Assembly: GCF_005434945.1 (NCBI RefSeq) | Contig: NZ_SKCH01000003.1 | Location: 124,001-188,000, forward strand | From: Prescottella subtropica | GTDB taxonomy: Bacteria > Actinomycetota > Actinomycetes > Mycobacteriales > Mycobacteriaceae | Direction: 5' to 3' | DNA length: 64,000 bases | In this document: positions 6,546 through 48,811 of the stretch, piece by piece | Position numbering within the stretch: the first letter of the stretch is position 1 | Layout of the letters: each line of letters opens with the position of its first letter | The notes under the pieces: model-generated | What the model was told of the DNA's origin: nothing | The model's database searches: none | Seen by the model: the letters and a program-made list of their open reading frames with translations, nothing else | Made by a program: the position numbers and the translations under genes

Positions 6546-6575
6546 TACTCGTTCAGTTGCCAGGAAGGCACACCC

Positions 6576-7619: not shown

Positions 7620-7625
7620 GCTCGG

Positions 7626-7847
7626 GTGGATCGAATCGCGAGCTGGTGGGACGGTACCGAACTGTGGGTCGCCGGCCTGCCGTTCGTCCCCCAGGTGATC
7701 CTGGTGCTCGCGGTGATGATTCCGGCCTGCTTCGGTATCGCATGGTTGCTCGACCGTGCCCTGTCGGCGGTGTTCACGCTGGTGGGGCGCGGCGAGCGCA
7801 TCGACGTCGCCGGCCCGACGGACAAGACGAAGGTGGAGGGTTCCTAG
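7626..7847 (+). CDS. Small membrane protein, unknown function
   Basis: A 73-residue protein with one clear hydrophobic segment (about residues 18-47, VPQVILVLAVMIPACFGIAW) and a short charged tail ending DKTKVEGS. It starts at GTG 6 nt after a -10-like TAGGCT. The tail suggests an N-out or N-in single-pass protein with a basic cytosolic side. A small membrane ORF in the same place near cysTWA exists in mycobacteria, from memory. It may accompany the transporter, but nothing in the sequence shows its role. Confidence 0.7.
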   Translation: MDRIASWWDGTELWVAGLPFVPQVILVLAVMIPACFGIAWLLDRALSAVFTLVGRGERIDVAGPTDKTKVEGS

Positions 7848-13916: not shown

Positions 13917-13980
13917 GCCGACGAGACTAACGGTGCAGTAAGGATTTTCGCGACACTTTCGCCGTAGTCGGGCGGGACGG

Positions 13981-14730
13981 TCAGGCGGAGAGTCGCGTTC
14001 CGGTGGTGGCGCGGACCGCCGCGGCGTACCGGTCGAACACGACCGCCGCCAGGTTCGGGTGCGCCCCGATCGGATCCGCGAACACCACGTCCGGGTCGGC
14101 GACGAGGGCTGCGTCGCCCAGCCGGTCGGTGAGCAGGCCCGGCGCCAGGAACCACGGGGCGATCACGACACGTCGCGCCCCCTGCGCGTGGAGTGACGAG
14201 ATCGCCTGCCCGACGGACGGCTGCGCGGCCGTCGCGAAGCACGCCGACGTCGACCACCGGGTACCGGCGCTCAGGACGGCCGTGAGCCGGTTCACCCGGC
14301 GGTTCGCCGCGGCATGCGACGAGCCGACCGCCGCGAGGACGACACCGGTCTCCGGATCGTCCACCGCGGCGCCGGCCGCGACGACCCGGTCACGGACCGC
14401 GCCGACCAGTCGCGGATCGCCACCGAGCACGTCCGCCTGGACGAGGGCCAGTCGCGGGTGTCGGGCCCGGGCGCCGGCAAGGATGCCCGGCAGGTCGACG
14501 CGGGCGTGGAAGGCACTGCCCAGCAGCAGCGGGACGACGACCGCCGCGGAATGCCCCTCGGCGGCCACCGCGTCGACGACCCGGTCCACCGACGGTGCCG
14601 TCAGATCGAGGAACGCGAGCCGGACGTCGAGATCCGGCCGCTGCGCGCGGATCGCCGCCACGGCAGCCACGACCACCCGAGCCGATCGGGGGTCACGGCT
14701 GCCGTGCGCGACGGCGATGAGCGGAGCCAC
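13981..14730 (-). CDS. che1: Sirohydrochlorin chelatase family protein (CbiX/SirB type)
   Basis: A 249-residue two-domain chelatase. The N-terminal AHGSRDPRSARVV contains the metal-binding His of CbiX/SirB. A second half with APWFLAPGLLTDRL repeats the fold, giving the length of a fused two-half enzyme. It would insert Fe into sirohydrochlorin to make siroheme, the cofactor of SirA in the same operon (or Co in cobalamin synthesis). It starts at GTG 4 nt after the cysN stop and is the last gene of the sirA-cysH-cysD-cysN operon. The position matches M. tuberculosis Rv2393 from memory. Confidence 0.85.
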   Translation of the reverse strand: MAPLIAVAHGSRDPRSARVVVAAVAAIRAQRPDLDVRLAFLDLTAPSVDRVVDAVAAEGHSAAVVVPLLLGSAFHARVDLPGILAGARARHPRLALVQADVLGGDPRLVGAVRDRVVAAGAAVDDPETGVVLAAVGSSHAAANRRVNRLTAVLSAGTRWSTSACFATAAQPSVGQAISSLHAQGARRVVIAPWFLAPGLLTDRLGDAALVADPDVVFADPIGAHPNLAAVVFDRYAAAVRATTGTRLSA

Positions 14731-20062: not shown

Positions 20063-20188
20063 GGGCCGATCCGGCTACCGATCGAAATGTGATGCAAACC
20101 ACACTTCGGGTCGGTGGCCGAGGTGCGGGTTTCGCCCCGTTCCGGGCGTGATCCGAGGGTCGGCGCGGTCGGCTGGAACACTGGTGGG

Positions 20189-21409
20189 GTGAGTGGTTCC
20201 CCCGTCTCGACCCCCGCCCCGGCTTCCTCGACCGATCCGGCGCCGTTCGTGCTGCCCGACACCGCACTGTCCGGGGTGGGCACACGGCCCTTCGGGGTGT
20301 ACGTCCACGTCCCGTTCTGCGCCACCCGCTGCGGCTACTGCGACTTCAACACCTACACGGCGGGCGAGTTGGGGACGTCGGCGTCGCCGCAGTCGTGGCT
20401 CGACGGCTTGAAGCGGGAACTCGCGCTGGCCGCGGAGGCGACCGGCGGCCCGGCCGCGGACACCGTGTTCGTCGGCGGGGGCACCCCGTCACTGCTCGGC
20501 GGCGACGGGCTGGCCGAGGTCCTCGGCGCCGTCCGGGACAGCTTCGGGCTCGCCGACGGTGCGGAGGTGACCACCGAATCGAATCCCGAGTCGACGTCAC
20601 CGCAGTTCTTCGCAGCCCTGCGGGACGCCGGCTACACCCGGATCTCCCTCGGCATGCAGTCCGCCGCCGAGCACGTCCTGAAAGTTCTCGACCGCACGCA
20701 CACCCCGGGCCGGGCCGTCGCCGCCGCCCGCGAGGCCCGCGACGCCGGTTTCGGGCACGTCAACCTCGACCTCATCTACGGCACCCCCGGCGAGACCGAC
20801 GCCGACCTGGACGCGTCCCTCGACGCGGTCCTGGGTGCCGGCGTCGACCACGTCTCCGCGTACTCGCTGATCGTCGAGGACGGGACCGCGATGGCCCGCA
20901 AGGTGCGCCGCGGGGAACTGCCGGCCCCCGACGACGACGTCCTCGCCGCCCGCTACGAACGGATCGACACGCGCCTGTCCGCCGCCGGCCTGCACTGGTA
21001 CGAGGTGTCGAACTGGGCGGCCGGTGACGACGCGAGCTGCCGGCACAACCTCGGCTACTGGGACGGCGGCGACTGGTGGGGTGCCGGGCCGGGCGCGCAC
21101 AGCCATGTCGGCGGCATCCGCTGGTGGAACGTCAAGCACCCGGCCCGGTACGCCGACCTGCTGTCGGCAGGGACGCTGCCGGTCGCCGGCAGTGAAACCC
21201 TCACCGCCGACGACGTCCACGTCGAACGCGTCATGCTGACGGTGCGACTGCGCACCGGGATTCCGCTGGCCGACCTGCGGGAGAGTGAACGGGAGGCGGC
21301 CGAGCAGGTCGTCGCGGACGGTCTCGCGGTCGTCGAGTCGGGGCATCTGGTGCTCACCGACCGGGGCCGGTTGCTGGCCGACGCCGTCGTCCGCGACCTG
21401 CTCGGGTGA
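20189..21409 (+). CDS. hemW: Heme chaperone HemW (radical SAM)
   Basis: A 406-residue radical SAM protein. The CX3CX2C cluster motif is CATRCGYC, preceded by YVHVPF. GGGTPSLL binds SAM, and HNLGYW (in CRHNLGYWDG) is the heme-binding motif that marks HemW rather than coproporphyrinogen dehydrogenase HemN. It delivers heme to respiratory enzymes. I chose GTG at 20189 because the first 25 upstream codons are unlike the family and a weak AACACT lies 6 nt before it. In mycobacteria hemW (annotated hemN) has the same neighbours. Confidence 0.93.
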   Translation: MSGSPVSTPAPASSTDPAPFVLPDTALSGVGTRPFGVYVHVPFCATRCGYCDFNTYTAGELGTSASPQSWLDGLKRELALAAEATGGPAADTVFVGGGTPSLLGGDGLAEVLGAVRDSFGLADGAEVTTESNPESTSPQFFAALRDAGYTRISLGMQSAAEHVLKVLDRTHTPGRAVAAAREARDAGFGHVNLDLIYGTPGETDADLDASLDAVLGAGVDHVSAYSLIVEDGTAMARKVRRGELPAPDDDVLAARYERIDTRLSAAGLHWYEVSNWAAGDDASCRHNLGYWDGGDWWGAGPGAHSHVGGIRWWNVKHPARYADLLSAGTLPVAGSETLTADDVHVERVMLTVRLRTGIPLADLRESEREAAEQVVADGLAVVESGHLVLTDRGRLLADAVVRDLLG

Positions 21410-34281: not shown

Positions 34282-34698
34282 CTATCCGGTGGTGGCGCAG
34301 TCCCGGCAGGTGCCGAAGATTTCGACGGTGTGGCTGACGTCGGTGAAGCCGTTGGCTTCGGCGATGGTGTGCGACCAGGCCTCGACCTCGGGGCCGTCGA
34401 CCTCGACGGTGAATCCGCAGCGCCGGCACACCAGGTGGTGGTGGTGCCCGGACGAGCAGCGGCGGTACACGGATTCGCCTGTGTCGGTGCGCAGCACGTC
34501 GACGGTCCCGGCCTCGGACAGGGCCTGCAGGGTCCGGTACACGGTGGTCAGGCCGATACCCTCGCCGCGGCGACGGAGCTCGTCGTGCAGTTCCTGCGCC
34601 GACCGGAACTCGGCGGTTTCGTCGAGCAGGGCGGAGATCGCGCTGCGCTGCTTGGTGGAGCGGACGCCGACGACGGCGCGGCCTCGGGGATCGGTCAC
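34282..34698 (-). CDS. zur: Zinc uptake regulator Zur (Fur family)
   Basis: A 138-residue Fur-family repressor. GLTTVYRTLQALSEAG is the recognition helix, HHHHLVCRRCG and the C-terminal FGTCRDC supply structural and regulatory zinc ligands. It represses zinc uptake genes when zinc is plentiful. GTG starts within the stop of smtB (GTGA overlap), so both regulators are co-expressed, as in mycobacteria (Rv2358-Rv2359). The gene has converged on the phoH-uppS strand. Confidence 0.95.
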   Translation of the reverse strand: MTDPRGRAVVGVRSTKQRSAISALLDETAEFRSAQELHDELRRRGEGIGLTTVYRTLQALSEAGTVDVLRTDTGESVYRRCSSGHHHHLVCRRCGFTVEVDGPEVEAWSHTIAEANGFTDVSHTVEIFGTCRDCATTG

Positions 34699-35036
34699 GG
34701 GGTCGGGCGTCCTTCCTGGGCGTGGGCGACGGCGTCGACGACGATGTGCGCGAGATGGTCGTCGACGAGCCGGTACATGACCTCGCGGCCGTGCCGTTCA
34801 CCGTGCACGACACCGGCCGCCTTGAGGATCCGCAGATGCTGACTGATCAGCGGCTGGGTGACGTCGAGGGCGCCGACCAGCTCGTGCACGCACCGCTGCG
34901 ACTCACGCAGTTGCAGCACGATCGCGATCCGGACGGGGGCGGCGAGGGCCCGCAGGATCTCGCCCGCGGCAGTCAACGTCTCCTTCGGGGGGAGCGGGGT
35001 GTCCGGCCCCTCCGTGCACGACTCGGTGACGCTCAC
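34695..35036 (-). CDS. smtB: ArsR/SmtB-family zinc-sensing repressor
   Basis: A 113-residue winged-helix repressor. ELVGALDVTQPLISQHLRIL is the helix-turn-helix, and DDHLAHIVVDAVAHAQE near the C-terminus is the alpha-5 zinc site (Asp-x-His, then His-x2-Glu). It derepresses when zinc binds. GAGGAG precedes the GTG start by 7 nt. The palindrome over its promoter indicates autorepression. It leads the smtB-zur operon; the divergent gene is glyS. Confidence 0.93.
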   Translation of the reverse strand: MSVTESCTEGPDTPLPPKETLTAAGEILRALAAPVRIAIVLQLRESQRCVHELVGALDVTQPLISQHLRILKAAGVVHGERHGREVMYRLVDDHLAHIVVDAVAHAQEGRPTP

Positions 35037-35075
35037 GGGCAGCTCCTCGCACGATCGTTATTGCAAACCGATCCC

Positions 35076-35104
35076 ATTTTGATATGCATGTATATGCATG
35101 TCAA
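35076..35104 (-). promoter_or_regulatory. smtB promoter with an overlapping 12-2-12 SmtB operator
   Basis: On the minus strand, TTGACA (35099-35104), 17 bp and CAAAAT (35076-35081) make the smtB promoter. The palindrome TTGATATGCATG-TA-TATGCATGTCAA spans 35079-35104 (arms of 12 with a 2-bp centre), the 12-2-12 layout of SmtB-family operators. It covers -35 through part of -10, so binding would block RNA polymerase. Confidence 0.75.
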
Positions 35105-35199
35105 CCGCGTGAGTGGACGTGGTTGCGTGTACGGATAGGCTGGACGCGCGAAATCCGCACGTCAACCACGCATCTATTACCCAGATGGAGAGCAGCCCA

Positions 35200-36591
35200 G
35201 TGGCACCCAAGTCCAAGATCGATACCGTCGCAAATCTCGCCAAGCGTCGGGGCCTCGTCTACCCATGCGGTGAGATCTACGGCGGTACCAAGTCGGCCTG
35301 GGACTACGGTCCGCTCGGCGTGGAACTGAAGGAGAACATCAAGAAGCAGTGGTGGCGCAACATGGTCACCGCCCGCGAGGACGTCGTCGGCCTCGACTCG
35401 TCGGTGATCCTGCCCCGCCAGGTGTGGGAGGCGTCCGGCCACGTCGACGTGTTCACCGACCCCCTCGTCGAATGCCTCAGCTGCCACAAGCGTCACCGCC
35501 AGGACCACCTGCAGGAGGCGTACGCGGAGAAGAAGGGCCTCGACAATCCCGACGCCGTCCCGATGGACGACATCGTGTGCGCCGACTGCGGCACCAAGGG
35601 CCAGTGGACCGAGCCCAAGGCGTTCTCCGGCCTGCTCAAGACGTTCCTCGGCCCCGTCGACAGCGAGACCGGACTGCACTACCTGCGCCCGGAGACCGCG
35701 CAGGGCATCTTCGTGAACTTCGCGAACGTGCTGACCACGTCGCGCAAGAAGCCGCCGTTCGGCATCGGCCAGATCGGCAAGAGCTTCCGCAACGAGATCA
35801 CCCCCGGCAACTTCATCTTCCGCACCCGCGAGTTCGAGCAGATGGAGATGGAATTCTTCGTCAAGCCGGGTGAGGACGAGGAGTGGCACCAGTACTGGAT
35901 CGACTACCGGATGGACTGGTACACCGGCCTCGGTATCGCCAAGGACAACCTGCGCCTGTACGAGCACGCGCAGGAGAAGCTGTCGCACTACTCCAAGCGC
36001 ACCGTCGACATCGAGTACCGCTTCGGCTTCCAGGGCAGCGAGTGGGGCGAACTCGAGGGCGTCGCCAACCGCACCGACTACGACCTGGCCACGCACGCCA
36101 AGGCGTCCGGCACCGACCTCAGCTACTTCGACCAGACGTCCGGTGAGCGCTACACGCCGTTCGTCATCGAACCGGCGGCCGGCCTGACCCGCTCGCTCAT
36201 GGCGTTCCTCGTCGACGCGTACGTCGAGGACGAGGCCCCCAACGCCAAGGGCGGTGTCGACAAGCGCACCGTGCTGCGGCTCGACCGTCGCCTCGCCCCC
36301 GTCAAGGCCGCGGTGCTGCCGCTGAGCCGCAACGCGGACCTGTCGCCCAAGGCGAAGGACCTCGCGACGACGCTGCGTCAGCACTGGAACGTCGAATTCG
36401 ACGACGCCGGCGCCATCGGCCGTCGCTACCGCCGCCAGGACGAGATCGGCACCCCGTTCTGCATCACTGTCGACTTCGACACTCTCGAAGACCACGCCGT
36501 GACCATCCGCGAGCGCGACACCATGGCGCAGGAGCGCGTCGCCCTCGACCAGGTCGAGGGCTACCTCGCGCAGCGCCTGATCGGCGCCTGA
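35200..36591 (+). CDS. glyS: Glycyl-tRNA synthetase (alpha2 type)
   Basis: A 463-residue class II synthetase. Motif 2 ([20 protein letters not shown]) and motif 3 ([17 protein letters not shown]) are intact. Inserted after the first strand region are two Cys pairs, CLSC (residues 92-95) and CADC (127-130), a likely zinc-binding insert. From memory the M. tuberculosis enzyme lacks these. I chose GTG at 35200 because GGAG lies 9 nt upstream and the length then equals that of mycobacterial GlyS; ATG at 35185 is an alternative. Confidence 0.94.
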
Positions 36592-36598
36592 TCTCCCC

Positions 36599-36649
36599 GG
36601 CCGAATGTCACACGCGTTCAGTCGAACTGAACGTGTGTGACATTCGGCC
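36599..36649. terminator. 23-bp bidirectional hairpin between glyS and the STM4011-like gene
   Basis: Arms 36599-36621 and 36627-36649 pair over 23 bp with one G-U. The hairpin begins 8 nt after the glyS stop and includes the last ten codons and stop of the opposing radical SAM gene. It probably ends transcription from both sides; the stop codon sits inside the stem. Confidence 0.65.
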
Positions 36650-37484
36650 ACGCGGCCGGGATCCGTTCGAGCACCCCGCCGGCGAACACGTCGTACAGCG
36701 GAAGTTGTTCGGTGTGCACGTACCCGATGTGGCAGTCGCACACCTCGAGCGGGCACGGACGCGGCCGCAACGCGCTGCGATACGAGCCGTCGTACAGGTT
36801 CCCCAGCACGGCGGGGACGAAATGGCAGCGCCGGACGGTGCCGTCACCGTCGACGGACACCACCGTCTCACCCGTCCGGCACGCCCGGCCCCCGGTCCGG
36901 TGCGGGTGCCGGCTGTAGGAGAAGAGCGGATCGATCCCGGCCCACTCGGACGCCTCGGCATCGGTATACGTGTGCCCCTCGGCGGCGTTGACCCACAGAT
37001 ACACCGACTCCGGCAGCTCCGTACGCAGCCGGCGGGCGGCCGCGAGATGCTCCGGTAGCCCGACGACCCCGACACTGAACCGCACCCCGAGCGCGGTCAA
37101 TTCGCTGGTCTTGGTGAGGAACCGGTCGTGCGGCGTCTGCCCGGGATGGTAGGTGCACCACAGGGCGACGGTGCCGAGGTCGGCGTCGGTCAGCCAGCCG
37201 GTGCGGCAACTCAGATTGGTCTGGATCGCCACCCGGCGCACGTGCGGCAGCCGCGACAACTCCACCAGGGCCCGCCGGTACCAGGACCGCACCAGCCCCT
37301 CACCCCACGGCGTGAACAGGATCGACACGTCGTGGTCCCGCTCCGCCACCCATGCGCAGAACCGTTCCAGCGCAGCCCGATCCGCGCGCAACTGCTCGGG
37401 GGTGTCGCGGCGTTTCGCGAACGGGCAGTACGGGCAGTCGTAGTCGCACGACGCCAACGGCCCCCGGTACAGGACGGTCAGCAT
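36618..37484 (-). CDS. STM4011-family radical SAM protein
   Basis: A 288-residue radical SAM protein. CDYDCPYC (CX3CX2C) near residue 13 binds the SAM-linked [4Fe-4S] cluster, and FTPWGEGLVRSWYRRAL follows. The C-terminal part has extra Cys residues (RACRTGE, RRCHFVP, CPLEVCDCH), as in SPASM-type auxiliary clusters. It is the last gene of the five-gene STM4011-STM4015-type operon. I recognise the family by its architecture and neighbours; the reaction is unknown. Its last codons lie in the terminator shared with glyS. Confidence 0.85.
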   Translation of the reverse strand: MLTVLYRGPLASCDYDCPYCPFAKRRDTPEQLRADRAALERFCAWVAERDHDVSILFTPWGEGLVRSWYRRALVELSRLPHVRRVAIQTNLSCRTGWLTDADLGTVALWCTYHPGQTPHDRFLTKTSELTALGVRFSVGVVGLPEHLAAARRLRTELPESVYLWVNAAEGHTYTDAEASEWAGIDPLFSYSRHPHRTGGRACRTGETVVSVDGDGTVRRCHFVPAVLGNLYDGSYRSALRPRPCPLEVCDCHIGYVHTEQLPLYDVFAGGVLERIPAAWPNVTHVQFD

Positions 37485-37486
37485 CG

Positions 37487-38851
37487 TCAGCGGCCCTCGT
37501 ACTCGGCCATCGCGGCGCGCACCCGCGGGGAGAACAACTCCGGTCCCAGCGCGTCGGAGTACGCCAGGCCCCGGTCGGTCAGCCGCAGCCGGTCACCGTC
37601 GACGTCGAGCCAGCCCCGGCCGGCCCACCGGTCCAGTTCGGTGCCGAAATGCTCGTGCGGGTCGGCCCCGAACCGGGAGCGGTAGTCCGCCACCGGCATC
37701 CCGGACGCCTGCAGCACCGACTGCAGCAGATGCCGGCGCCGCGACTCGTCGTCGGTCATGGTGTGACCCACCACGGCGCGACGGAACCCGTCGACCGGGG
37801 TGGCCACGTAGTCGTCGATGATGGCCCGCACCTCGTGCGCGCCCACCGCGTAGTCGAACGAGTAGTGCAGCCGACGCGTGTACGACCGTGCGCCGCAGCC
37901 GAGTCCGATCATGCCGTCGGTCTGGCAGGCGTAGTCGTTCGGGCCGGTGTCGGGGGCATCGGCGCGCCGGAACATGCGCATCGACTCCTGCACGTACCCG
38001 GCCGCGAGCAGGTGGTCGCGGCCGCGGCGGTACAGGTCCAGACGGTGGGCGTCCCACTGCGGATCCGGGCCGCCGCCGCGGCGGGCCAGCCCGGTCAGCG
38101 GCCGCACGTACAGCGGGTACAGGTACAGCTCTTCGGGTCGCCACGTCAGCGCGGCGTCCAGCGACGCCGCCCACGACTGCGGCGTCTGGCCGTCGATCCC
38201 GTAGATCAGGTCGATGTTGAGCACCGGGATCGCGACGTCCCGGACGCGTTGCAGAGCGGCCTCGACGTCCGTCCGGCGCTGCGGCCGGACCGCGGCGCGG
38301 GCCTCGGTGTCGTCGAAGCTCTGCACGCCGAGACTCAGACGGGTGGTACCGCGGTCGGCGAGGACCGCGAGCCGGTCGGCGGTGGCGGTCGACGGGGACG
38401 CCTCCACCGACAGCGGCACCGCCCGCAGATCGGTGCCCATGCCCTCGGCGATGTCGCACAGCCGGGTCAGTTCCGCCGCCGTCAGATAGGTGGGCGTCCC
38501 GCCCCCGAACGCGGCCGTCGCGAACCGGGCCGACGGGGGCAACGACTCGCGCACCGCCGCGGCCTGCCGCTCGAGCGCGTTGAGGTAGCGGGTGGTCAGC
38601 TCGTCCGGCGCCCCGACCCGGGTGAACAGATTGCAGAACCCGCAGCGCACCTCGCAGAACGGAATGTGCAGGTACAGCGACAGCGTGTCCTGCGGCTCGT
38701 CCGCCCACAGGTCGGTCAGGGCGGGGCGCGGATCCAGCGGCCGGTACGCCGTCTTGTGCGGATACGCGTACACGTAGTTCCGGTACGGCGCAACGTAATC
38801 CGCGGGCACCTCGGGCGTCGGCGCGAGCAGGGGTAGGTCGGTGGCGGTCAT
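37487..38851 (-). CDS. STM4012-family radical SAM protein (HemN/HemW-like)
   Basis: A 454-residue radical SAM protein of the HemN-type. LYLHIPFCEVRCGFCNLF holds CX3CX2C, and FGGGTPTYLTAAEL is the SAM-binding loop. LSLGVQSFDD and NIDLIYGIDGQ are HemN-family blocks. It lacks the HNxxYW heme motif of HemW; CQTDGMIGLGCGARSYTRRL occupies that region. So it is a distinct branch with an unknown substrate. The ATG overlaps the stop of the hydrolase gene (ATGA). Confidence 0.88.
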   Translation of the reverse strand: MTATDLPLLAPTPEVPADYVAPYRNYVYAYPHKTAYRPLDPRPALTDLWADEPQDTLSLYLHIPFCEVRCGFCNLFTRVGAPDELTTRYLNALERQAAAVRESLPPSARFATAAFGGGTPTYLTAAELTRLCDIAEGMGTDLRAVPLSVEASPSTATADRLAVLADRGTTRLSLGVQSFDDTEARAAVRPQRRTDVEAALQRVRDVAIPVLNIDLIYGIDGQTPQSWAASLDAALTWRPEELYLYPLYVRPLTGLARRGGGPDPQWDAHRLDLYRRGRDHLLAAGYVQESMRMFRRADAPDTGPNDYACQTDGMIGLGCGARSYTRRLHYSFDYAVGAHEVRAIIDDYVATPVDGFRRAVVGHTMTDDESRRRHLLQSVLQASGMPVADYRSRFGADPHEHFGTELDRWAGRGWLDVDGDRLRLTDRGLAYSDALGPELFSPRVRAAMAEYEGR

Positions 38852-39696
38852 GTCGGTCCCTCGAGGAAGAAGTGGGCGTACGGCACCGTCCACACCACGG
38901 GGTGGCCCAGCCGGTGCCCGGTGTAGCCGTCCTCGCCGTACGCGGTGCCGTGGTCGGAGCACACGATCGCGAAGCAGCGGCGCCGACGCGACACCGCGTC
39001 GAACAGTCGTCCGATGTGCCGGTCCACGTACTCCAACGCGGCCGCGTGCGTCGCCCGCGTGTCGCCGTCCTCGACGGTGGCGCCCTCGGCGTGGAACCAG
39101 TTCGGCTGGTGCAGCGCGGAGACGTTGACGAACAGGAACAGCCGACGCTCGGCCGGCAGCCGGTCCACCACCTGCGCCGCGAGATCCACCTGCGCCTCGA
39201 ACGACGTCGGCGACGTCACCCCGAACTCGGGGGACCAGTGCGCTTCGTCGAACAGAGCGGGCAGCACCGAGCCCAGCGCACCCCGGCGGTTGAAGAAGCC
39301 GACCCCGCCGATGCACGCCGTGTGATAGCCGACGGCGGCAAGGCCCGCAACGAGATTCGACTCCGCGAACACGAACGTCCCGGCCGCAGTGGACTCGCTG
39401 CCGCCGAACTCGGCCGCGAACAACCGCGGATGCGGACCCTGCCCGACGGGGGTGGGCAGGAACCCGGCGAACATCGCCTGGTGCGACGCGTAGGTGAAGC
39501 TGCCGGGGGAGTGCCGCTGCTCCCACCGACCGCCCGGCAGGTGCCGCGCCAGGTTCGGGATGCGGCCGGCGGCCGCGAGTTCGCAGGCCACGTCGTAGCG
39601 CAGGGTGTCGAGGGTGAGCAGCAGAATGTCGTCGGAACCGACGACGGTGCCCATGTCAGGGTTCATGTCAGGCTGTGTCGTCTCACACTGTGGCAT
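38848..39696 (-). CDS. STM4013/SEN3800-family hydrolase (alkaline phosphatase superfamily)
   Basis: A 282-residue protein of the sulfatase/alkaline phosphatase superfamily. ILLLTLDTLRYD holds the metal-binding Asp and nucleophile-like Thr; CSDHGTAYGEDG and HRLGHPV hold the later metal ligands. It likely cleaves a phosphate or sulfate ester, or phosphonate. ATG at 39696 is chosen because it follows the STM4014-like stop with 1 nt between. In-frame ATGs at 39711, 39666 and 39654 are alternatives. Confidence 0.8.
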   Translation of the reverse strand: MPQCETTQPDMNPDMGTVVGSDDILLLTLDTLRYDVACELAAAGRIPNLARHLPGGRWEQRHSPGSFTYASHQAMFAGFLPTPVGQGPHPRLFAAEFGGSESTAAGTFVFAESNLVAGLAAVGYHTACIGGVGFFNRRGALGSVLPALFDEAHWSPEFGVTSPTSFEAQVDLAAQVVDRLPAERRLFLFVNVSALHQPNWFHAEGATVEDGDTRATHAAALEYVDRHIGRLFDAVSRRRRCFAIVCSDHGTAYGEDGYTGHRLGHPVVWTVPYAHFFLEGPT

Positions 39697-39697
39697 T

Positions 39698-40792
39698 TCA
39701 CGCTGTGGCATTGTCGATCCATCCGTCGAGTGCGGCCAGTTGCGCCGCATACGTGTCGAGGCCGTCGGCGCGGCCCGCCAGTCCGCCCAGGCCGGGGAGC
39801 AGATCACCGAAGGCGTTCACCTCGCCGACCGCGGCGCCGCGCCAGTGCGCGGCGGGCAGCAGATCCACCCCGACACACAGGGTGCGCGGGAAGCAGGCGG
39901 CCGCAGACTCGGCCACGGCGAGCGCCCGGTCCCAGCCGAATCCGGCCGCGTCGAAACCGTTCTGTGCGACACCGAGATCGCCGCGCCGGCCGCCCAGGTG
40001 CAGGTTGGTCATGGGGTGGCCGCTGGTGCGCAGCACCGCGTGGGTGGCCCGCCCGGCGACCACCACGACGCGCAGGTCGGCGACACCGCCGTGGGTCGAC
40101 GGCTTCGGCAGCCACGCCTCGACATGCAGCCCCTCACCGGCCAGCGCGTCGATCAGGGCGCCGACCGCGGCGTCCCCGGTGTGCCGGCGGACGCGCAGCG
40201 AATTGTGGACGCCGTCCGCGGCGAGTTCCACACTGCTGCGGGCCTGCACCAGGCCGTCGGACGCCGTCTCCACCGCGACCACCCCGGCCGCCGACGACCC
40301 GTGCGCGGGTTTGACGAAGAACCGGCGCAGACCGGCCGCGTCCGCCAGCTCCCGCACCTGCCGCCAGTTCCGCGGCACCGGGGCACCGGGACCCGACGTG
40401 GGCGACACCGGTACCGGCACACCGGCCTGCGCGAGGACGCCGTGGCAGCGCCGCTTGTCGAACAGCACCGCCAGGTCCTCTGCGTCGGTCAGGTAGCGTC
40501 CGCCGCGCAACGTCCCGACCGCGTCGAGAAACGTTGTGTACCACCGCGGTCCGGACGCGATGCGGGTCGGGGCGCCGGGCCCGCGCAGCACCGCGTCCAC
40601 GTCGGGGTCCTCGCCGGGGGAGTCGAGACGCACCCACTCGTCGGACTCGAACCGGGCGCCGCCTGCGGCGAGGACATCACGCCAGGCCACCACCCGCGGG
40701 GTGGGCAGGCCCCGCCGCCGCGCCGCGTCCACGAACAACGCGACGCGCCGGTTGTCGGGATTGCCCACCACGGCCAGGCGGGGTGGGGTCAT
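39698..40792 (-). CDS. STM4014-family protein, ATP-grasp-like
   Basis: A 364-residue protein. LRRFFVKPAHGSSAAGVVAVE resembles the lysine and Gly-rich ATP-binding loop of ATP-grasp enzymes, and VGEVNAFGDLLPGL near the end resembles the metal-binding E-x-N. ATP-grasp enzymes ligate carboxylates to amines, so peptide or protein modification is possible. The ATG overlaps the stop of the LRR gene (ATGA). The substrate is unknown. Confidence 0.78.
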   Translation of the reverse strand: MTPPRLAVVGNPDNRRVALFVDAARRRGLPTPRVVAWRDVLAAGGARFESDEWVRLDSPGEDPDVDAVLRGPGAPTRIASGPRWYTTFLDAVGTLRGGRYLTDAEDLAVLFDKRRCHGVLAQAGVPVPVSPTSGPGAPVPRNWRQVRELADAAGLRRFFVKPAHGSSAAGVVAVETASDGLVQARSSVELAADGVHNSLRVRRHTGDAAVGALIDALAGEGLHVEAWLPKPSTHGGVADLRVVVVAGRATHAVLRTSGHPMTNLHLGGRRGDLGVAQNGFDAAGFGWDRALAVAESAAACFPRTLCVGVDLLPAAHWRGAAVGEVNAFGDLLPGLGGLAGRADGLDTYAAQLAALDGWIDNATA

Positions 40793-41745
40793 TCGCCGAC
40801 TGCGACGGACCGGTAGACGGTGCCGTCGTACTCGTCCTCGTCGGCGTCGCCACCGTCGAGGTCCAGCTGCACGCCGGACGGTTCGAGCGCCGCCCGCAGC
40901 CGCTCCCGCATCCCGCCGGTGAGGTAGTTGTGGTGCAGGTCCAGCGACTCGAGGTGGGTGAGCGGCTGCCCGGCCAGCAGGGCCTCGGCGCCCGCGTCGC
41001 CCAGGATGCCCTTGGACAGGTCCAGGACCCGCAACCGCGGCACGATCGTCGCCGACGCCACGGCGGCCGCGATGTCGTCCTGGTACTCGCTGTTGGCGAG
41101 CGCGAGTCGCGTCAGGTGGGGGAGTTTCCCGCCGGCGAGGATCGGGGCGAGGTCCTCGACGGACGAGTCGGCGCCGTAGTTCTCGTCGCCCAGCCACAAC
41201 TCCAGCTCGGTGAGGGCCGGAAGATCCGACGCGGCGACCGCCCGGACCACGTCACCGGACAGGCCACCCGATTCGATCACCAGGGTGCGCAGGTGCTCGT
41301 GCCGGACCGGGGTCAGCGCCAGTTGGTTGCCGCCGCGGACCGTCAGATGCTCGAGCCGCGGGAACGCGGTGAGCAGGGCGGTGACGTCGGACTGCACGAT
41401 CCACGAGATCTCGCAGTCCTCGAAGGTCATGTCTCCGAGGAACAGTGACCGCAACGCGGGGAGTTCGTCGGCGGCCGCGACGAGCGCTGCCATCACGTCG
41501 GCCGAACTGTTCTCGTACGGTTCGGACCAGCCGCCGACGACGATGGCCTGCACACTCGCCGGATCGACGGTGGCGCGGAACGTCTCGAACGCCTCCGGCC
41601 ACTCGACCTCCGCGTCGTACGTGGGGACGGCGATGCGCCACGCGACCGGCCCCGGCGGGGGCACGACCGGGGCGGTGTCGGTGTCGGTGGGGAATTCCAC
41701 GACGGGAAGGCCGTGGAACTCGTTCTGCAGCTCGCTGATCAGCAC
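40789..41745 (-). CDS. STM4015-family leucine-rich-repeat protein
   Basis: A 318-residue soluble protein. Several repeats of LRxLxLxxxxL type are visible (FPRLEHLTVRGGNQLAL, LPHLTRLALANSEYQ, VPRLRVLDLSKGILGD, LTHLESLDLHHNYLTGG), as in ribonuclease-inhibitor-like LRRs. An N-terminal non-LRR domain (about residues 1-95) and an acidic tail (DLDGGDADEDEYDG) flank them. It may recognise a partner or substrate for the radical SAM and ATP-grasp enzymes. GTG start, with CAGGAG 4 nt before. It is the first gene of the operon. Confidence 0.82.
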   Translation of the reverse strand: MLISELQNEFHGLPVVEFPTDTDTAPVVPPPGPVAWRIAVPTYDAEVEWPEAFETFRATVDPASVQAIVVGGWSEPYENSSADVMAALVAAADELPALRSLFLGDMTFEDCEISWIVQSDVTALLTAFPRLEHLTVRGGNQLALTPVRHEHLRTLVIESGGLSGDVVRAVAASDLPALTELELWLGDENYGADSSVEDLAPILAGGKLPHLTRLALANSEYQDDIAAAVASATIVPRLRVLDLSKGILGDAGAEALLAGQPLTHLESLDLHHNYLTGGMRERLRAALEPSGVQLDLDGGDADEDEYDGTVYRSVAVGE

Positions 41746-41818
41746 GGAACTCCTGCTCTCGGGTCGGTTCGGCGGGCGGTATGCCTGACTTCGGAAGTTC
41801 GGGTCGCGTTCGCCGGTC

Positions 41819-41827
41819 AACGTAGCA
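41819..41827 (-). promoter_or_regulatory. Extended -10 upstream of the STM4015-STM4011 operon
   Basis: TGC-TACGTT on the minus strand is an extended -10 about 74 nt before the GTG of the LRR gene, without a clear -35. It is the likely operon promoter. Confidence 0.5.
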
Positions 41828-41867
41828 ACGGACTCCGACAAGAGGGCTCCTGGCCGTGCACAGGCGA

Positions 41868-43886
41868 CTAGAACCGGCCCCCACCGCCGCGTCCGACGCG
41901 CCCCGAACTGCCGGAGCCGCCGAACGATCCGGGACGCGGACCACCCCGGCCGCCGCCGTACCCGCCCCGGCCGCCGCGCAGCATGCTGTCGATGAGGATG
42001 CCGCCGAGGATCGCGCCGGCCGCGTTCTCTCCGCGGGAGCCCCCGCTGATCCCGCCGCCGGGTGGACGCTGCTGGTCCTGATACCGGTTCACGTCGGCCT
42101 GTGCCGCCCACAGCGCCTTGGCGCCCAACTGGGTGGCGGCCTGCGCGTGCTGCAGGGCCTGCGACGGATCCGACTGCGCGAGTTGCCGTGCCGCCTCGAG
42201 ATGCCGCTGCGCCTCCGACAGCCGGGTGCGGGCCTCGGCGCCGACGGCCCCGCGCCGCGTGCCGATGAAGTCCGCGGCCGCGGACACCTGGGAGGTGGCG
42301 GCCGTCAGATCCTGGTCGAGACGGGCCCGCGCCCGGTCGGCCTGCTGCTGTGCCTCCTGCGCCTCGTCGAGGACGGCGTCGAGGGCGGCGTCCGCGTCGA
42401 CGACCTTCGTGAAGCTGCCCAGCGGATCGGAATCCTTGGCGGCGTGGGCGTCCCGCAGTGCGGCCTCGGCGGCGGCCCGCGCGTCGGCGAGCTTCTGCCC
42501 GCCCCGGGCGGCGAGCGCGGCGGCATCGTCGATGCCGCGCTGGACGTCCGCCATCGCCTCCGGCAACGTCGCGATCGCGTGCCGGATGTCGGTGTCCGCG
42601 CGGTCCAGGGCGTCGAGGAGGGTGCGGGCCTGATCGAGCGCACCCTCGGCGGCCCGGATCGCCGCCACCGCGGGCCCCTGCTTGCCGGCCGGCAGTGCCA
42701 CCGCGTCCCGGGCCGCCTCGATGTTCTGCTCCGCGAACACGATCCGGTCCCGCGCCATCGCCGGATTGTGTTCGACGGTCGCCAGCACCGGTGCCGGGAA
42801 CTCGGTGCGCAGCGCGGCCAGGGTGGCGTCGGACTGCGGCGCCCGCACCGTCAGCGCGACGACGGCCTGCGTCAGTGCGTCGAGGCGGGCCGGCGCGTCG
42901 ATCAGCAGGTCGCGCATCGCATCGAACTGCGTCACCCGGTCGTCGAGTTCCCTGTCGGCCCGCGCGCACGTCGTGACGAGTTCGACCAGCAGATCCCGCT
43001 GCTGCTGAGGGGTTTCGGGGATGTCGTCGTCGAGTCGCTGCCGGATCGTGAACGCCGACGCCAACGCGGCTCGGGCCTGCTCGAACGCGGCGGTGAACGC
43101 GGCGGTGGCGTCTGCACCGAACTCGCCGACCGCCAGGTCCAGCTCCTCGGCGGACGTGCGGATCGCGTTGTCGGTCTCGACGAGCACCTCCTTCGCGAGC
43201 GCATCGAGCGCCGGAATCGGAAGCGTCGCAAGCGCGGCGGGATCGGTCGGATCGACCCGGTGGGCGGCCGCCACATCCTGTTCCTGCTGCCGTGTCCGCT
43301 TGCGGCGCGTGGAGACGACCACCACACCGCCCACCACGACGAGCACGCCGAGCCCGATCCACAGCACCACCGTGCCGGTACTGCCCGGCGTCAGGGCGTC
43401 GTCGAGGCCGCCCGCCGCCGCGATCGCGGCACCCGACCAGTCGTCGTCGCGGAGCATCGGCTCCACCGAATCCTGTTGGATCGACGTCACTTCCGCATCG
43501 CTGACCTGCGACAGCGCCTGCGGGACGTCGAACCGGTAGGCGCTGTCGGCCGTCGCCACGGCGAGCAGCGCGTCCCGGTTCCCGAGCCCGCTGAGCGACA
43601 CCGTGCGGTCGGCCCACACCTGCGGGGTCAACCCGTCGAAGTCCGGCACGTACACCACCCACAGCGACACCTTGTGGTCGGCGTACAGCGTGTCGAGGGC
43701 GTCCTGCACGTCGGCGCGCTGACTGTCGTCGAGCACCCCGGAGGTGTCGGTGATGTGCCCGGGCAGCCGCAGCGGCGCCTCGGCCGCCGCGACCCCGGGG
43801 GAGAACGTAAGCACGAGCAGCGACAACAGCGTGCCGACGAGCGACGCGGCAAGTGCCCGGGGGACGGAACGAGGAGCGCGTGACAT
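41868..43886 (-). CDS. Membrane protein with an N-terminal TPM domain and long coiled region
   Basis: A 672-residue protein. A signal/anchor ([20 protein letters not shown]) precedes a TPM domain ([40 protein letters not shown]). A second membrane segment ([16 protein letters not shown], about residue 180) leads to a basic motif and a long Ala/Asp/Glu-rich helical region (about residues 200-600), then a Gly-rich tail. It equals M. tuberculosis Rv2345 by position, from memory. Its role is unknown; the domains suggest envelope stress or scaffolding. Confidence 0.82.
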
Positions 43887-43954
43887 GGCACGAATCTATC
43901 CGGTGGGGCGCGTCGTCACCCATGGCCCGTCCGGGCGACTGGCAGAATCGGGGC

Positions 43955-44650
43955 GTGAGTACCGCGCCCAACTACCAGCACACCGAACTGCCGTCCCGGC
44001 CCGCGCCGCGACGGTCGTTCGTCGCCGGTGTCGGCCGCTGGATCGGCAGGCTGATCGCGGGCGTCGTGGTGATCGGGGTGATTCTCGTCGCCGGCACCGC
44101 GACCCGGGTGTGGCAGGTGGCGCGCATCGACGACACCCGGCCCGCCGACGCGATCGTCGTGCTCGGTGCCGCCCAGTACGACGGCACCCCGTCGTCGGTG
44201 TTCGAGGCCCGACTCGACCAGGCACGCAAACTGTACGAGCGGGGGGTGGCGCCGACGATCGTCACCGTCGGCGGCAAACAGGTGGGCGACGAATACACCG
44301 AGGCCGCGTCCGGGAAGAACTTCCTGATCGACGAGGGTGTCCCGGCCGCCGCGATCCTCGCCGTCGAGGAGGGCTCGGACACCCTGCTCAGCGTCGAGGC
44401 GGTCAGCCGGGAAATGGGTGTGCGGGGCATGCATTCCGCGGTCCTCGTCAGCGATCCGTGGCATTCGCTGCGCACCCGCACGATGGCCCACGACGCCGGA
44501 CTCGACGCGTGGACCGCACCCACCCGTCAGGGTCCGGCCGTGATGACACGGGAGTCACAGATCCACGGAATCACCAGGGAGACAGGTGCTTTGTTGTGGT
44601 ACCAGCTGACCCATTTCTCGGCCGACTTCGAGTACACGGCCGGACAGTGA
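43955..44650 (+). CDS. YdcF/ElyC-like membrane protein (DUF218)
   Basis: A 231-residue protein with one membrane segment ([17 protein letters not shown]) followed by a DUF218 domain: [36 protein letters not shown]. The family acts on the envelope and may handle lipid-linked intermediates. GTG at 43955 is chosen because CAGAAT lies 6 nt upstream (leaderless). The stop overlaps dgt by 4 nt. Confidence 0.82.
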
Positions 44651-45930
44651 GCCCCACCGAACCGATGTACACCGGGCACGACCTGGAGCGTCGGGTGTCG
44701 GAGGCGCCGAAGACCGCGGGTCTGGTGCCGTCCGCGGAGTCGGTGCAGCACCGGACCGCGTTCGCCCGGGACCGCGCCCGCGTCCAGCATTCGGCGGCGC
44801 TGCGCCGACTCGCCGACAAGACGCAGGTCGTCGGGCCGCGGGACGGGGACACGCCCCGCACCCGGTTGACCCATTCGATCGAGGTCGCCCAGATCGGCCG
44901 CGGTATCGCCGAGGGGCTCGGACTGGACCCGGATCTCGTCGACCTCGCCGGACTTGCCCACGACATCGGGCACCCCCCGTACGGGCACAACGGGGAGAAG
45001 GCCCTCGACGAGGTCGCCGCACCGTGCGGCGGCTTCGAGGGCAACGCCCAGAACCTGCGGATCCTCACCAGCCTGGAACCGAAGATCCTCGACGCCGACG
45101 GCCGCAGCGTCGGACTGAATCTGACCCGGGCATCGCTCGACGCCGCGATCAAATATCCGTGGACACGGCCCGCGCCGGGCGCCAAGTTCGGCGCCTACGA
45201 CGACGACGCCGACGTCCTCGCCTGGGTGCGCGACGGCGCCCCCGACGGCCGCAAATGCATGGAAGCACAGGTCATGGACTGGGCCGACGACGTCGCCTAC
45301 TCGGTCCACGACGTCGAGGACGGGGTGATCGCCGGCCGCATCGACCTACGTGCCCTCGGCGACCCCACCGAGGTGCGGGCCCTCGCCGAACTCGGCGCCC
45401 GCCGGTTCCCCGGACTCGTCGTCGACGAACTCGTCGACGCCGCCACCCGGCTGTCCCGGCTCCCGGTGGTGGCGACCGCCCACGACTACGACGGCACCCT
45501 CACCAGCGCCGTCGCGTTGAAGAACCTCACCAGCGAACTCGTCGGCCGGTTCGCGTCCGCCGCCGTCGCCGGCACCCGCGAACTCGCCGGACCCGGACCG
45601 CTCACCCGCTACCGGGCCGACCTCGAGGTGCCGCCGATCGTGGCCGCCGAGGTGGCCCTCCTCAAGACCGTCGCTCTGCACTACGTGATGTCCGACGCCG
45701 GTCACCGCGCCCGCCAGGACCGGCAACGCGACCGCGTCCACCGGGTCGCGCACTGGCTGCTGCGGACCGCGCCCGCCGGGCTCGACCCCCTGTTCCTGCC
45801 CGACTGGACCGCCGCCGCCGACGACGCCGCCCGCATCCGGGTGGTCGTCGACCAGATCGCGTCGTGCACGGAAAGCCGGCTCGAACGGATCGACAAGCAG
45901 TCCCTCGGCGCCCAGGCCAGCTGGGGGTAG
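44647..45930 (+). CDS. dgt: Deoxyguanosinetriphosphate triphosphohydrolase-like HD protein
   Basis: A 427-residue HD-domain phosphohydrolase. [30 protein letters not shown] and [12 protein letters not shown] carry the H..HD..D metal ligands. It releases tripolyphosphate from dNTPs, lowering the pool. The GTG start is inside the previous stop (GTGA). In mycobacteria dgt stands next to dnaG, as here, with only the lipoprotein gene between. Confidence 0.93.
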
Positions 45931-45931
45931 G

Positions 45932-46804
45932 TCAGCACGTGATCCAGGTCGAGGGATCGGATGTGCCGTCGAGTCGTTTGCCGTAGGCGTCGCCACCGGC
46001 CGCTCGTACCGCTGCACACACCTCCGACGTCGTTCGGCCCGCCTCGCGGTAGACGGTGTAGATCGGATCGCCCGAGTCGCTCGCCTGCCGCAGCGACGGG
46101 CACGACCGGTCCGTGCGGAGGTAGCTCGCCCCGGGATACGTCGTCAGATACCGCTGGATCTCGGTGCGGTACGACGCCGGGTCGGTGGCGTTGGCGAGGA
46201 CGACGATCCCGGTCCCGTCGCACGCGGGCACGGTCATGGGTGTCGACAGTCCGAGATCACCGGCGACGGTGGCGGGCACACCGGGGACGGGCCCGGCCGC
46301 GGGGCGGGCGACGATCCGGAGTTGCCCGTCGGCGGTTTCGCACACCCCGGAATTCCCGGTCGCCTGGGCTCTCGCGGCCGTCGGACTGGAACAGCCCCAC
46401 CCGTCGAACGACGCGAACCAGGTGTTGCCACCGTGCTCGAGGGCAGGGTCGTGGAGGTACCGGCCGAACACGGCGTACGCGCCCGCACAGGTGATGGTGG
46501 TGCCCTTCTCGACGAAGATGTCGACGACACTGCCGGTCTGCGGATAGGCGGTCGTGCCGCACGACTCGCCCGGAAGGGGCGGCTTGGACAGGGGGTCGGG
46601 TTCACGTGTCGTCGGGGTCGCTGCTGCCGCGGACTCCGAGATGGAGGCCGTCGCGGTCGTCGTTTCGGCTCCGGACACGCCGACGGCGACACCGGACTCG
46701 GTGCGGTCCAGGGCGGAACACCCGGTGGCGGCGACTGCGGCCGCGATCACCGCCAGCGGCAGCAACGCGGTGCGTACGGCCGGTCGTCTCACAATCCCAC
46801 TCAT
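45932..46804 (-). CDS. Secreted lipoprotein, unknown function
   Basis: A 290-residue exported protein. A signal peptide (TALLPLAVIAAAVAATGC) ends in lipobox ATGC (Cys near residue 29). A Thr/Ala-rich linker of about 40 residues follows, then a folded domain with eight further Cys (for example SCGTTAYP, GWGCSSP, DRSCPSLR, TSEVCAAVR, ITC), which may form disulfides. GGGGGAG lies before the ATG. No family is recognised. It is squeezed between convergent dgt and divergent dnaG. Confidence 0.75.
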   Translation of the reverse strand: MSGIVRRPAVRTALLPLAVIAAAVAATGCSALDRTESGVAVGVSGAETTTATASISESAAAATPTTREPDPLSKPPLPGESCGTTAYPQTGSVVDIFVEKGTTITCAGAYAVFGRYLHDPALEHGGNTWFASFDGWGCSSPTAARAQATGNSGVCETADGQLRIVARPAAGPVPGVPATVAGDLGLSTPMTVPACDGTGIVVLANATDPASYRTEIQRYLTTYPGASYLRTDRSCPSLRQASDSGDPIYTVYREAGRTTSEVCAAVRAAGGDAYGKRLDGTSDPSTWITC

Positions 46805-46879
46805 CGTCGTCTCCCCCTCGCGTGGATCGTCCCGTCGGTCCGGACACGCGGCCGGTCGCCGACGACTCGACGATGAGAA

Positions 46880-46885
46880 TAAACT
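46880..46885 (+). promoter_or_regulatory. -10 element TAAACT of dnaG
   Basis: TAAACT ends 6 nt before the GTG of dnaG, indicating a leaderless dnaG transcript. Confidence 0.55.
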
Positions 46886-46891
46886 GGCTCC

Positions 46892-48811
46892 GTGGCCGGC
46901 CGAATTCCTGACAGAGACATCGCGGCCGTCCGCGACCGCACGCGCATCGAGGACGTCGTCGGCGAGTACGTCTCGCTCAAACGTGCGGGCGGCGACTCCA
47001 TGAAGGGGCTGTGCCCGTTCCACGACGAGAAGTCGCCGTCGTTCCACGTCCGCCCCAACCACGGGCACTACCACTGCTTCGGCTGCGGCGAGGGCGGCGA
47101 CGTCTACTCGTTCCTGCAGAAGATCGAGCACGTCAGCTTCGTCGAGGCCGTCGAGCAACTCGCGGACCGGGCCGGCTACCAGATCTCGTACGAGGGCGGC
47201 GGCCCGTCCGTGCAGAAGGATCGCGGCACCCGGGCCCGGTTGGTCGCTGCGAACGCGGCCGCGCAGGAGTTCTATGCCGCCCGGTTGACGGAACCGGAGG
47301 CGCAGGCCGCCCGCGACTATCTGACCGAACGGAACTTCGACGCGGCCGCCGCCGCGCAGTTCGGCTGCGGGTACGCGCCCGCCGGCTGGGACACCCTCAC
47401 CAAGCATTTGATGGCGAAGGGGTTCGACGCCAAGGAACTCGAGGCGGCCGGCCTGTCGAAGGAGGGCCGACGCGGCCCGATCGACCGCTTCCACCGCCGG
47501 CTGCTGTGGCCGATCCGCAACCTTTCGGGCGACGTCATCGGTTTCGGCGCCCGCAAACTGTTCGACGACGACACCATGCCCGGCAAGTACGTCAACACGC
47601 CCGAGACGATCCTGTACAAGAAGTCGCAGGTGCTGTTCGGCCTCGACCTGGCCAAGCGGGACATCGCCAAGGGGCACCAGGCGGTCGTCGTCGAGGGCTA
47701 CACCGACGTCATGGCCATGCACCTGGCCGGGGTGAAGACGGCGGTCGCGTCGTGCGGCACCGCGTTCGGTGACGAACACCTCGCGATGCTGCGCCGGCTC
47801 CTCATGGACGACAGCTACTTCCGCGGCGAGGTCATCTACACGTTCGACGGCGATGCCGCCGGGCAGGCCGCCGCGATGAAGGCGTTCGAGGGCGACCAGA
47901 AACTCGCCGGCAAGACGTACGTCGCGATCGCCCCCGACGGCATGGACCCGTGCGAGCTGCGTCAGCAGTCCGGTGACGCCGCGGTGCGTGATCTGGTCGC
48001 CCGGCGCACCCCGCTGTTCGAGTTCGTCGTCAAATCGATTCTCGCGGAACATGATCTGAACACCGCTGAGGGGCGGGTGGAAGCATTGCGCCGGGCTGTC
48101 CCGGTGGTGGCCCGGATCAAGGAGTCGACGCTGCGCGACGGCTACGCCGTCCAGTTGTCCGGCTGGGTCGGCTGGGACGACATCCCGGCCGTGCGCCGCA
48201 GGGTCAAGGAAGAGGCCCGCAAGTTCGCGCGCGGCGGAACCGGTGCCCCCGTCAAACGTCGTCCGACCGGGGAACCGTCACCCGACGCCCCGCCGCCGGG
48301 AGTGCCGCGGCCACGCCCCAACGATCCGACGCTGTGGCCGCAACGCGACGCACTCAAGGCCGCACTGCAGTACCCGGCGATCGCCGGCACCGTGTTCGAT
48401 TCGCTTCCGGCGGAGACGTTCACGCATCCCGCATACTCCGCGGTGCGGGCCGCGGTAGCCGCGGCCGGTGGCACGTCCGCGGGACTCGGCGGCGCCGAAT
48501 GGGTCGACGCCGTCGGCCGCAACGCCGGTGACCTCGTCGTGCAGTCGCTGGTGATGGAACTCGCGGTCGATCCGCTGCCCGCCGACGACGAGACCGCACC
48601 CCGCTACATCCGTGGCGTGCTCGCGCGCCTCCAGGAGGTGTGGGTGGGGGAGCAGGTCGCCGAACTGAAGTCGAAGTTGTCGCGCATCTCGGTGGAGGCC
48701 AACGCCGACGAATACTATTCGCTGTTCGGTGACCTCATGGCGCTCGAACAGTACCGACGCAGCCTGCGCGATCAGGCGATCGGCGACACCAGCGGCGCGG
48801 GCATCGCCTGA
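46892..48811 (+). CDS. dnaG: DNA primase DnaG
   Basis: A 639-residue primase. The N-terminal zinc finger is CPFH..CFGCGEGG (about residues 40-65). TOPRIM motifs VVVEGYTDVMAMH and FDGDAAGQ are intact, followed by a linker and a C-terminal DnaB-binding helical domain. It makes RNA primers for replication. Leaderless GTG start. The neighbours dgt and the small membrane protein repeat the mycobacterial order (Rv2344c-Rv2342). Confidence 0.96.
   Translation: MAGRIPDRDIAAVRDRTRIEDVVGEYVSLKRAGGDSMKGLCPFHDEKSPSFHVRPNHGHYHCFGCGEGGDVYSFLQKIEHVSFVEAVEQLADRAGYQISYEGGGPSVQKDRGTRARLVAANAAAQEFYAARLTEPEAQAARDYLTERNFDAAAAAQFGCGYAPAGWDTLTKHLMAKGFDAKELEAAGLSKEGRRGPIDRFHRRLLWPIRNLSGDVIGFGARKLFDDDTMPGKYVNTPETILYKKSQVLFGLDLAKRDIAKGHQAVVVEGYTDVMAMHLAGVKTAVASCGTAFGDEHLAMLRRLLMDDSYFRGEVIYTFDGDAAGQAAAMKAFEGDQKLAGKTYVAIAPDGMDPCELRQQSGDAAVRDLVARRTPLFEFVVKSILAEHDLNTAEGRVEALRRAVPVVARIKESTLRDGYAVQLSGWVGWDDIPAVRRRVKEEARKFARGGTGAPVKRRPTGEPSPDAPPPGVPRPRPNDPTLWPQRDALKAALQYPAIAGTVFDSLPAETFTHPAYSAVRAAVAAAGGTSAGLGGAEWVDAVGRNAGDLVVQSLVMELAVDPLPADDETAPRYIRGVLARLQEVWVGEQVAELKSKLSRISVEANADEYYSLFGDLMALEQYRRSLRDQAIGDTSGAGIA

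Follow-up and report, generated by a model that had tools for sequence, protein, structure and literature searches.

A locus in the genome of Prescottella subtropica raises the question of what five neighbouring proteins, whose NCBIfam families carry no stated function, make or modify together. The window analyzed here is the whole stretch of 64,000 nucleotides (nt) from contig NZ_SKCH01000003.1 (positions 124,001 to 188,000 of the forward strand), and all coordinates not assigned to another locus are positions within it. Its minus strand carries five contiguous genes running from 41745 to 36618, which by sequence and open reading frame (ORF) boundaries are STM4015, STM4014, STM4013, STM4012 and STM4011. 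The operon is genuine, widespread and unexplained, and its composition suggests that a leucine-rich repeat (LRR) protein undergoes ligation at its terminal glutamate (Glu), combined with radical chemistry. We consider it probable that the five genes specify a system for loading a C-terminal glutamate: the ligase STM4014 would load the LRR protein STM4015 at this residue, and two radical S-adenosylmethionine (SAM) enzymes, STM4011 and STM4012, together with the hydrolase STM4013, would build or trim the load. The observations behind this proposal are the gene set, the co-occurrence of its members, the intact catalytic residues, the invariant terminal Glu and the kinship of STM4014 to ligases acting on a C-terminal Glu.

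The new element is the pairing of an invariant STM4015 terminal Glu with a LysX/RimK-type ligase, a link not found in the literature searched, which narrows five uncharacterized families to one mass-spectrometry question. If the proposal is true, the carrier-protein principle known from a very small zinc protein would also apply to LRR scaffolds and would include radical SAM chemistry at two steps, and the operon would represent an unrecognized kind of protein modification or of carrier-based biosynthesis. A sequence-only reading of the locus had described the five families as uncharacterized, and they are still so: no function for the operon or its families was found in the searched literature, a search largely outside of which lie the subscription papers. 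In the accessible parts of two papers, single STM genes of the operon are named in tables only (PMC3844500, PMC2784778).

The terminal glutamate of STM4015 and its putative ligase

The STM4015 protein of the window (318 amino acids; 40789..41745, minus strand, GTG start; NF038076, 383.8 bits, cut-off 275) ends in ...DEDEYDGTVYRSVAVGE, its last residue being Glu318. An initial scan of the loci gave 115 STM4015 matches, 114 of them with a C-terminal Glu; the sole exception, which ends in Ser, is a 104-residue fragment (locus L026, 6103-6417). It belongs to an apparently frameshifted STM4015 gene, in which it occupies a different reading frame from the remaining piece (5754-6740), and that piece does have the Glu at its end. 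All 112 full-length proteins, which are all distinct over the last 200 residues, carry the terminal Glu, and it is likewise invariant (24/24) in a diverse alignment. Among loci fetched later there were 17 distinct full-length matches, two of them already in the set, and the other 15, including that of E. coli, all end in Glu. Past residue 262 of the trimmed 112-sequence alignment, the terminal Glu is the only residue conserved at 97% or more, and it is also kept in STM4015 paralogs unlinked to the operon (L022, L023, L114, L146, L147). The last residue varies in the other four operon proteins.

Two other sources of this invariance were rejected. Sampling of close relatives does not account for it, since the terminal Glu is found in 26/26 clusters formed under 60% identity and in 8/8 under 45% identity; the probabilities computed for the invariance are naive, as they ignore shared descent. 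The last codon and stop of the window gene (GAA and TGA, 40789..40794, minus strand), which would encode the attachment site, form an ATGA overlap with the STM4014 start. Such a coding overlap cannot explain the Glu, because the 112 genes use both Glu codons (GAG in 75 and GAA in 37) and each of the three stops, and an overlapping ATGA or GTGA is absent from 47 of them.

Upstream of the terminal residue, the tail is conserved more loosely: over the 26 clusters, position -4 is Ala or Ser in 24, -6 is Tyr or Phe in 23 and -7 is Arg in 22, and the 39 residues preceding the terminal Glu contain 11% Glu. A motif derived from actinobacterial tails matched 100 of 15,898 ORFs of at least 60 residues, all of them STM4015, a result that bears only on near relatives because the motif is too narrow for the tails of Salmonella, Bacteroides and Paenibacillus. 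The closest solved structure, 2ra8 from Bacteroides fragilis, reaches the aligned family end at YPMITE and continues for 8 more residues, which are taken to be a tag; a C-terminal tag on STM4015 would mask the chemistry proposed here. The sequence-only reading had named the acidic tail of the LRR protein as a candidate substrate, a suggestion that is supported and can now be narrowed to the terminal Glu, and it had seen in the same protein a generic recognition part, a role for which that of carrier or substrate is now the more likely replacement.

STM4014 (39698..40792, minus strand; NF038074, 394.2 bits, cut-off 175) has an ATP-grasp fold with the catalytic residues present, as had been surmised, and its kinship can now be specified. 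The top matches of a PDB profile search were LysX and RimK, and when the AlphaFold model (pLDDT 90) was aligned with VIA-align to 998 PDB chains, the best were ArgX-LysW, LysX and RimK, so that by fold and nearest relatives the protein is of the LysX/ArgX type, tied with RimK. ArgX, LysX and RimK are ligases that join amines to the C-terminal Glu of a protein. STM4014 falls below the cut-offs of the archaeal LysX equivalog (TIGR02144, 15.8 of 275.6 bits) and of the RimK subfamily (TIGR00768, 30.1 of 143.4 bits); judged by its sequence, it is LysX-like without being LysX.

Partner enzymes, proposed reactions and alternatives

Both radical SAM proteins have an intact CX3CX2C motif (CDYDCPYC and CEVRCGFC), as the sequence-only reading had seen. 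STM4012 (37487..38851, minus strand; NF006067, 639.7 bits, cut-off 380) is of the HemN/NocN type, with PDB profile matches to HemN (1olt, 4.4e-52) over most of its length and to NocN (9p2u, 4.4e-32) over residues 33-308 of the profile. It resembles the HemN-like enzymes (HemN, HutW/ChuW, NocN) in sequence profile but differs from them in having its own equivalog family and fixed partner genes, and it reaches none of the HemN, HemW and HutW family cut-offs. STM4011 (36618..37484, minus strand; NF038073, 411 bits, cut-off 200) has a Cys-rich, SPASM/twitch-like C-terminal part, and residues C13, C17 and C20 as well as C202, C220, C244, C249 and C251 are present in 94/94 members. Its model, of only moderate confidence, is closest to BlsE, SkfB and SuiB, at 12-21% identity to these structures, and the profile match to SkfB (6efn, E 0.0012) covers residues 190-262. 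The likeness to these enzymes lies in the model and the Cys-rich part, whereas the operon, unlike theirs, has no precursor peptide gene.

The remaining enzyme, STM4013 (STM4013/SEN3800 family; 38848..39711, minus strand, with 39711, 39696 or 39666 as start; NF038075, 418.4 bits, cut-off 250), matches PF00884 and PF01663, the best Pfam match being Sulfatase and the best PDB profile match an NPP (2gsn). NPP/sulfatase-type enzymes belong to the broad alkaline-phosphatase superfamily, and the earlier assignment as an alkaline-phosphatase-like hydrolase thus holds at that level and is sharpened to the NPP/sulfatase type. Residues D20, T58, D238, H239 and H255 are kept in 87-88 of 89 members, and the presumed nucleophile position is taken by Thr. 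The presence of an ATP-grasp ligase alongside two radical SAM enzymes supports a modification or biosynthesis pathway, as had been suggested.

In the reaction scheme that we propose, STM4014 would use ATP to phosphorylate the terminal Glu carboxylate of STM4015 and would then couple to it an amine, either an amino acid or an amino-sugar/nucleoside-like compound. The LRR body would serve as a docking surface presenting the load to the other enzymes, STM4011 (SPASM/BlsE-like) and STM4012 (HemN/NocN-like) would make or remodel the load, and STM4013, as a metallohydrolase, would take off a phospho- (or sulfo-) ester group, with a HAD phosphatase as its helper in enterobacteria and Bacteroides. We infer that STM4014 acts on STM4015, and likewise the sequence in which the reactions take place, what the load is and whether it is released or retained.

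The nearest parallel is the amino-group carrier system (LysW with LysX/ArgX; Vzb22 in Streptomyces). There, too, the gene of a LysX/ArgX-type ligase neighbours that of a specialized protein whose acidic tail invariably ends in Glu, and the solved ligase structures of this system are among the best matches of STM4014. LysW, however, is a small zinc protein ending in EDWGE, whereas STM4015 is an LRR protein of about 320 residues with a RYVAVxE-type tail, and the five genes encode none of the Lys/Arg-route enzymes (kinase, reductase, aminotransferase, peptidase), in the place of which they have a hydrolase of the NPP/sulfatase type and two radical SAM enzymes. RimK glutamylates ribosomal protein S6, the place of which is taken here by the LRR protein, with radical SAM partners in addition. 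The operon would function in the manner of amino-group carrier and RimK systems, but cut-off and gene-content tests place it in neither. Pearlin pathways, as far as the accessible part of their description goes, are alike in that a carrier's C-terminus is the site where a small molecule is assembled and in that radical SAM chemistry takes part (PMC9303977), but PEARL loading depends on aminoacyl-tRNA whereas an ATP-grasp ligase is found here, and no PEARL (aminoacyl-tRNA-dependent, LanB-like) domain was among the domain matches of the five proteins.

Whether the load is released or stays on the protein may be reflected in the copy number of STM4015. Over 83 loci, one full-length copy is found in 61, two in 20, four in one and five in one, and the 36 within-locus pairs have a median body identity of 59%, with the terminal Glu kept in every copy. 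No releasing peptidase is among the five operon genes. Because the release of a small molecule needs one carrier, whereas several copies are expected of decorated binding proteins, the multiple diverged copies lean towards a modification that remains on the LRR protein, and those found in 22 of the 83 loci hint that the pathway may end with the modified LRR proteins themselves. A bolder and only tentative extension is that a single set of enzymes equips a whole genomic repertoire of LRR proteins, which differ in recognition surface, with a prosthetic group made by radical SAM chemistry and attached at the terminal Glu; these would then be binding proteins of a new class, each carrying a tethered cofactor.

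Other explanations of the conserved terminus appear unlikely to different degrees. The terminal Glu and tail might be a non-covalent recruitment motif, with a different protein or an unattached small molecule as the target of the enzymes and with STM4014 ligating small molecules, like DcsG or glutathione synthetase; such a docking role is rather unlikely, as an invariance restricted to the extreme C-terminal residue and an STM4014 whose best matches are C-terminal-Glu ligases both fit covalent loading better. Maturation in the manner of ribosomally synthesized and post-translationally modified peptides (RiPPs), in which STM4011 and STM4012 would crosslink or alter tail residues (e.g., the Glu together with an aromatic residue, Tyr/Phe at -6 or Trp/Tyr at -8) and STM4014 would cap or extend the tail, seems still more doubtful. 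PqqE, which acts on residues of PqqA, would be the model for it, and the SPASM relatives SkfB and SuiB are RiPP maturases and the aromatic residue at -6 is frequent (23/26 clusters); nevertheless, the aromatics vary (Ser or Asn at -6 in 3/26 clusters; Trp, Tyr or Phe at -8 in 16/26) while the Glu does not, and the five genes include no protease or exporter. A Pup-like conjugation, in which STM4015 would be attached through its terminal Glu to the lysine residues of other proteins to tag or target them, is highly improbable. In its favour, Pup too has a C-terminal Glu and is activated at the side-chain carboxylate of that residue; against it, Pup ligase is glutamine-synthetase-like and not an ATP-grasp enzyme, STM4015 has about 320 residues, and tagging offers no evident role for two radical SAM enzymes.

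The operon in the window and in other genomes

The five-gene operon that had been proposed for the window is borne out, since all five proteins score above the curated NCBIfam cut-offs and are plain members of the STM4011-STM4015 families. Its genes had been described as overlapping by 4 nt or lying 1-2 nt apart; this is correct for the STM4015/STM4014 and STM4013/STM4012 junctions (4-nt overlap each) and for STM4012/STM4011 (2-nt gap), whereas STM4014 and STM4013 either overlap by 14 nt or are separated by 1 or 31 nt, according to which STM4013 start is chosen. The upper end had been placed at 41868, a position that is the stop of the next upstream gene, encoding a TPM-domain protein (PF04536). 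The intergenic stretch of 122 nt between the two (41746..41867) presumably holds the operon promoter, unless there is co-transcription with the TPM-domain gene; a scan of 36300-42200 for sigma-70-type promoters gave no match. The gene boundaries also agree with the earlier remark that no gap inside the operon is sized for a precursor peptide: there is no space for such a gene between the five genes, the largest gap being the 122 nt upstream of STM4015, and a precursor elsewhere was not sought.

The co-occurrence of the families was analyzed in 396 Actinomycetota genomes with the profiles of four of the five families, STM4011, STM4015, STM4014 and STM4013. Each profile scored above its cut-off in six genomes, and these were the identical six (G000, G023, G107, G161, G182, G204), in agreement with the expectation of a co-occurring unit. 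Sub-cut-off matches in further genomes (STM4011, 7; STM4015, 0; STM4014, 76; STM4013, 72) are read as shared folds in view of their low scores. Among plasmid records, tblastn matched STM4011 in 13, STM4015 in 14, STM4014 in 12 and STM4013 in 16, with 12 records common to all four. The others are a Bacteroides record, a Calothrix record (STM4015, in this search of plasmids), and two Streptomyces albidoflavus records and one from Kitasatospora with STM4013-like genes. In the Bacteroides record STM4011, STM4015 and a piece of STM4013 were matched, and an annotated STM4014 is present though missed by tblastn.

The five-gene order is identical in Salmonella (L016), E. coli (L145), Paenibacillus (L018), Methylobacterium (L019), Deinococcus (L020, L149, L150) and Streptomyces (L021). 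At the level of single stretches (90 loci plus the window), the plain order STM4015 (once or twice)-4014-4013-4012-4011 is found in 68 of 91, the window among them; the remaining 23 include contig ends, broken frames, extra copies, operon-free plasmid stretches and rows disordered by the sorting of stop-to-stop frames. A HemW-like gene of the window (20093-21409) also appears in its row of the gene-order script. The five-gene arrangement is beyond chance, and the same order recurs across phyla. The possibility that the families are scattered without one another was checked as well, and because of the same six genomes, the 12 common plasmid records and the conserved order, it does not refute the operon reading.

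STM4011 relatives are encoded in at least 459 stretches in one scan, and the actinobacterial genome loci used here (L026-L105) are the best 80 of these matches, all of them actinobacterial. The operon is also present on plasmid records from several other phyla. The Salmonella STM4014-4011 stretch was matched in 154 of 5426 complete E. coli genomes, and in the one genome inspected the operon, including STM4015, lies between ompL and typA. The Salmonella record labelled plasmid 3 (L016, NZ_LN868945.1, 8415-33209) looks like a mislabelled chromosomal fragment because polA, glnA, typA and hemN adjoin the operon on it.

Accessory genes, genomic setting and variant loci

A DUF6745 protein (PF20530) adjoins the operon in 62 of the 80 genome loci, and a GEVTGHAH-type protein of about 100 residues, with no Pfam or NCBIfam match, in 63. 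The pair lies beside the operon in three phyla, as seen at 6316-7641 in Methylobacterium (L019), 12921-14230 in Deinococcus (L020) and 5418-7040 in Streptomyces (L021), and DUF6745 is also annotated there in Deinococcus L149 and L150. DUF6745 proteins end in Thr in 64 of 65 matches (Ala in one) and have Y.P at -7/-5 in 64 of 65. As an obligate sixth component DUF6745 was rejected; it is optional because a search of the window's genome gave no match and only 3/6 operon genomes have it, while 7/390 other genomes gave matches (six over the cut-off, all with weaker scores).

In the window, the operon is flanked by a glycyl-tRNA synthetase gene and the TPM-domain gene (neighbours at 34282-36591 and 41868-48052). 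Six neighbour proteins were sought around the operon in the loci of seven relatives and none was found, the window as positive control giving six of six, so that the chromosomal site of the operon appears to differ. In a tree of 23 rows, whose support is moderate in part and whose outer branches are long, the Rhodococcus/Gordonia copies and the Nocardia copies are separate, among Streptomyces. Of 22 stretches of viral contigs fitting a pattern, none encodes a relative, and an anti-phage defence role found no support, as PADLOC gave only a weak partial match to STM4012 (25.4 bits) over seven proteins scanned.

Variant loci were seen on plasmid records. In that of Bacteroides finegoldii (L017, 9333-13530), a HAD-IIB phosphatase forms a fusion with STM4011, there is no STM4012, and STM4013 is shortened to about 75 residues; the STM4015 frame has an N-terminal WGR domain (7.8e-18); its reading as a minimal system was not adopted, as a deletion or an assembly fault is possible. 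A Streptomyces albidoflavus plasmid (L024, 5815-9261) carries a second cluster composed of a MoaA-like radical SAM protein, a thymidylate-kinase-like protein, an unknown protein of about 160 residues, an STM4013-like hydrolase and a NUDIX hydrolase, and by eye the kinase-like, unknown, STM4013-like and NUDIX ORFs of Kitasatospora (L025, 6709-9292) resemble this cluster.

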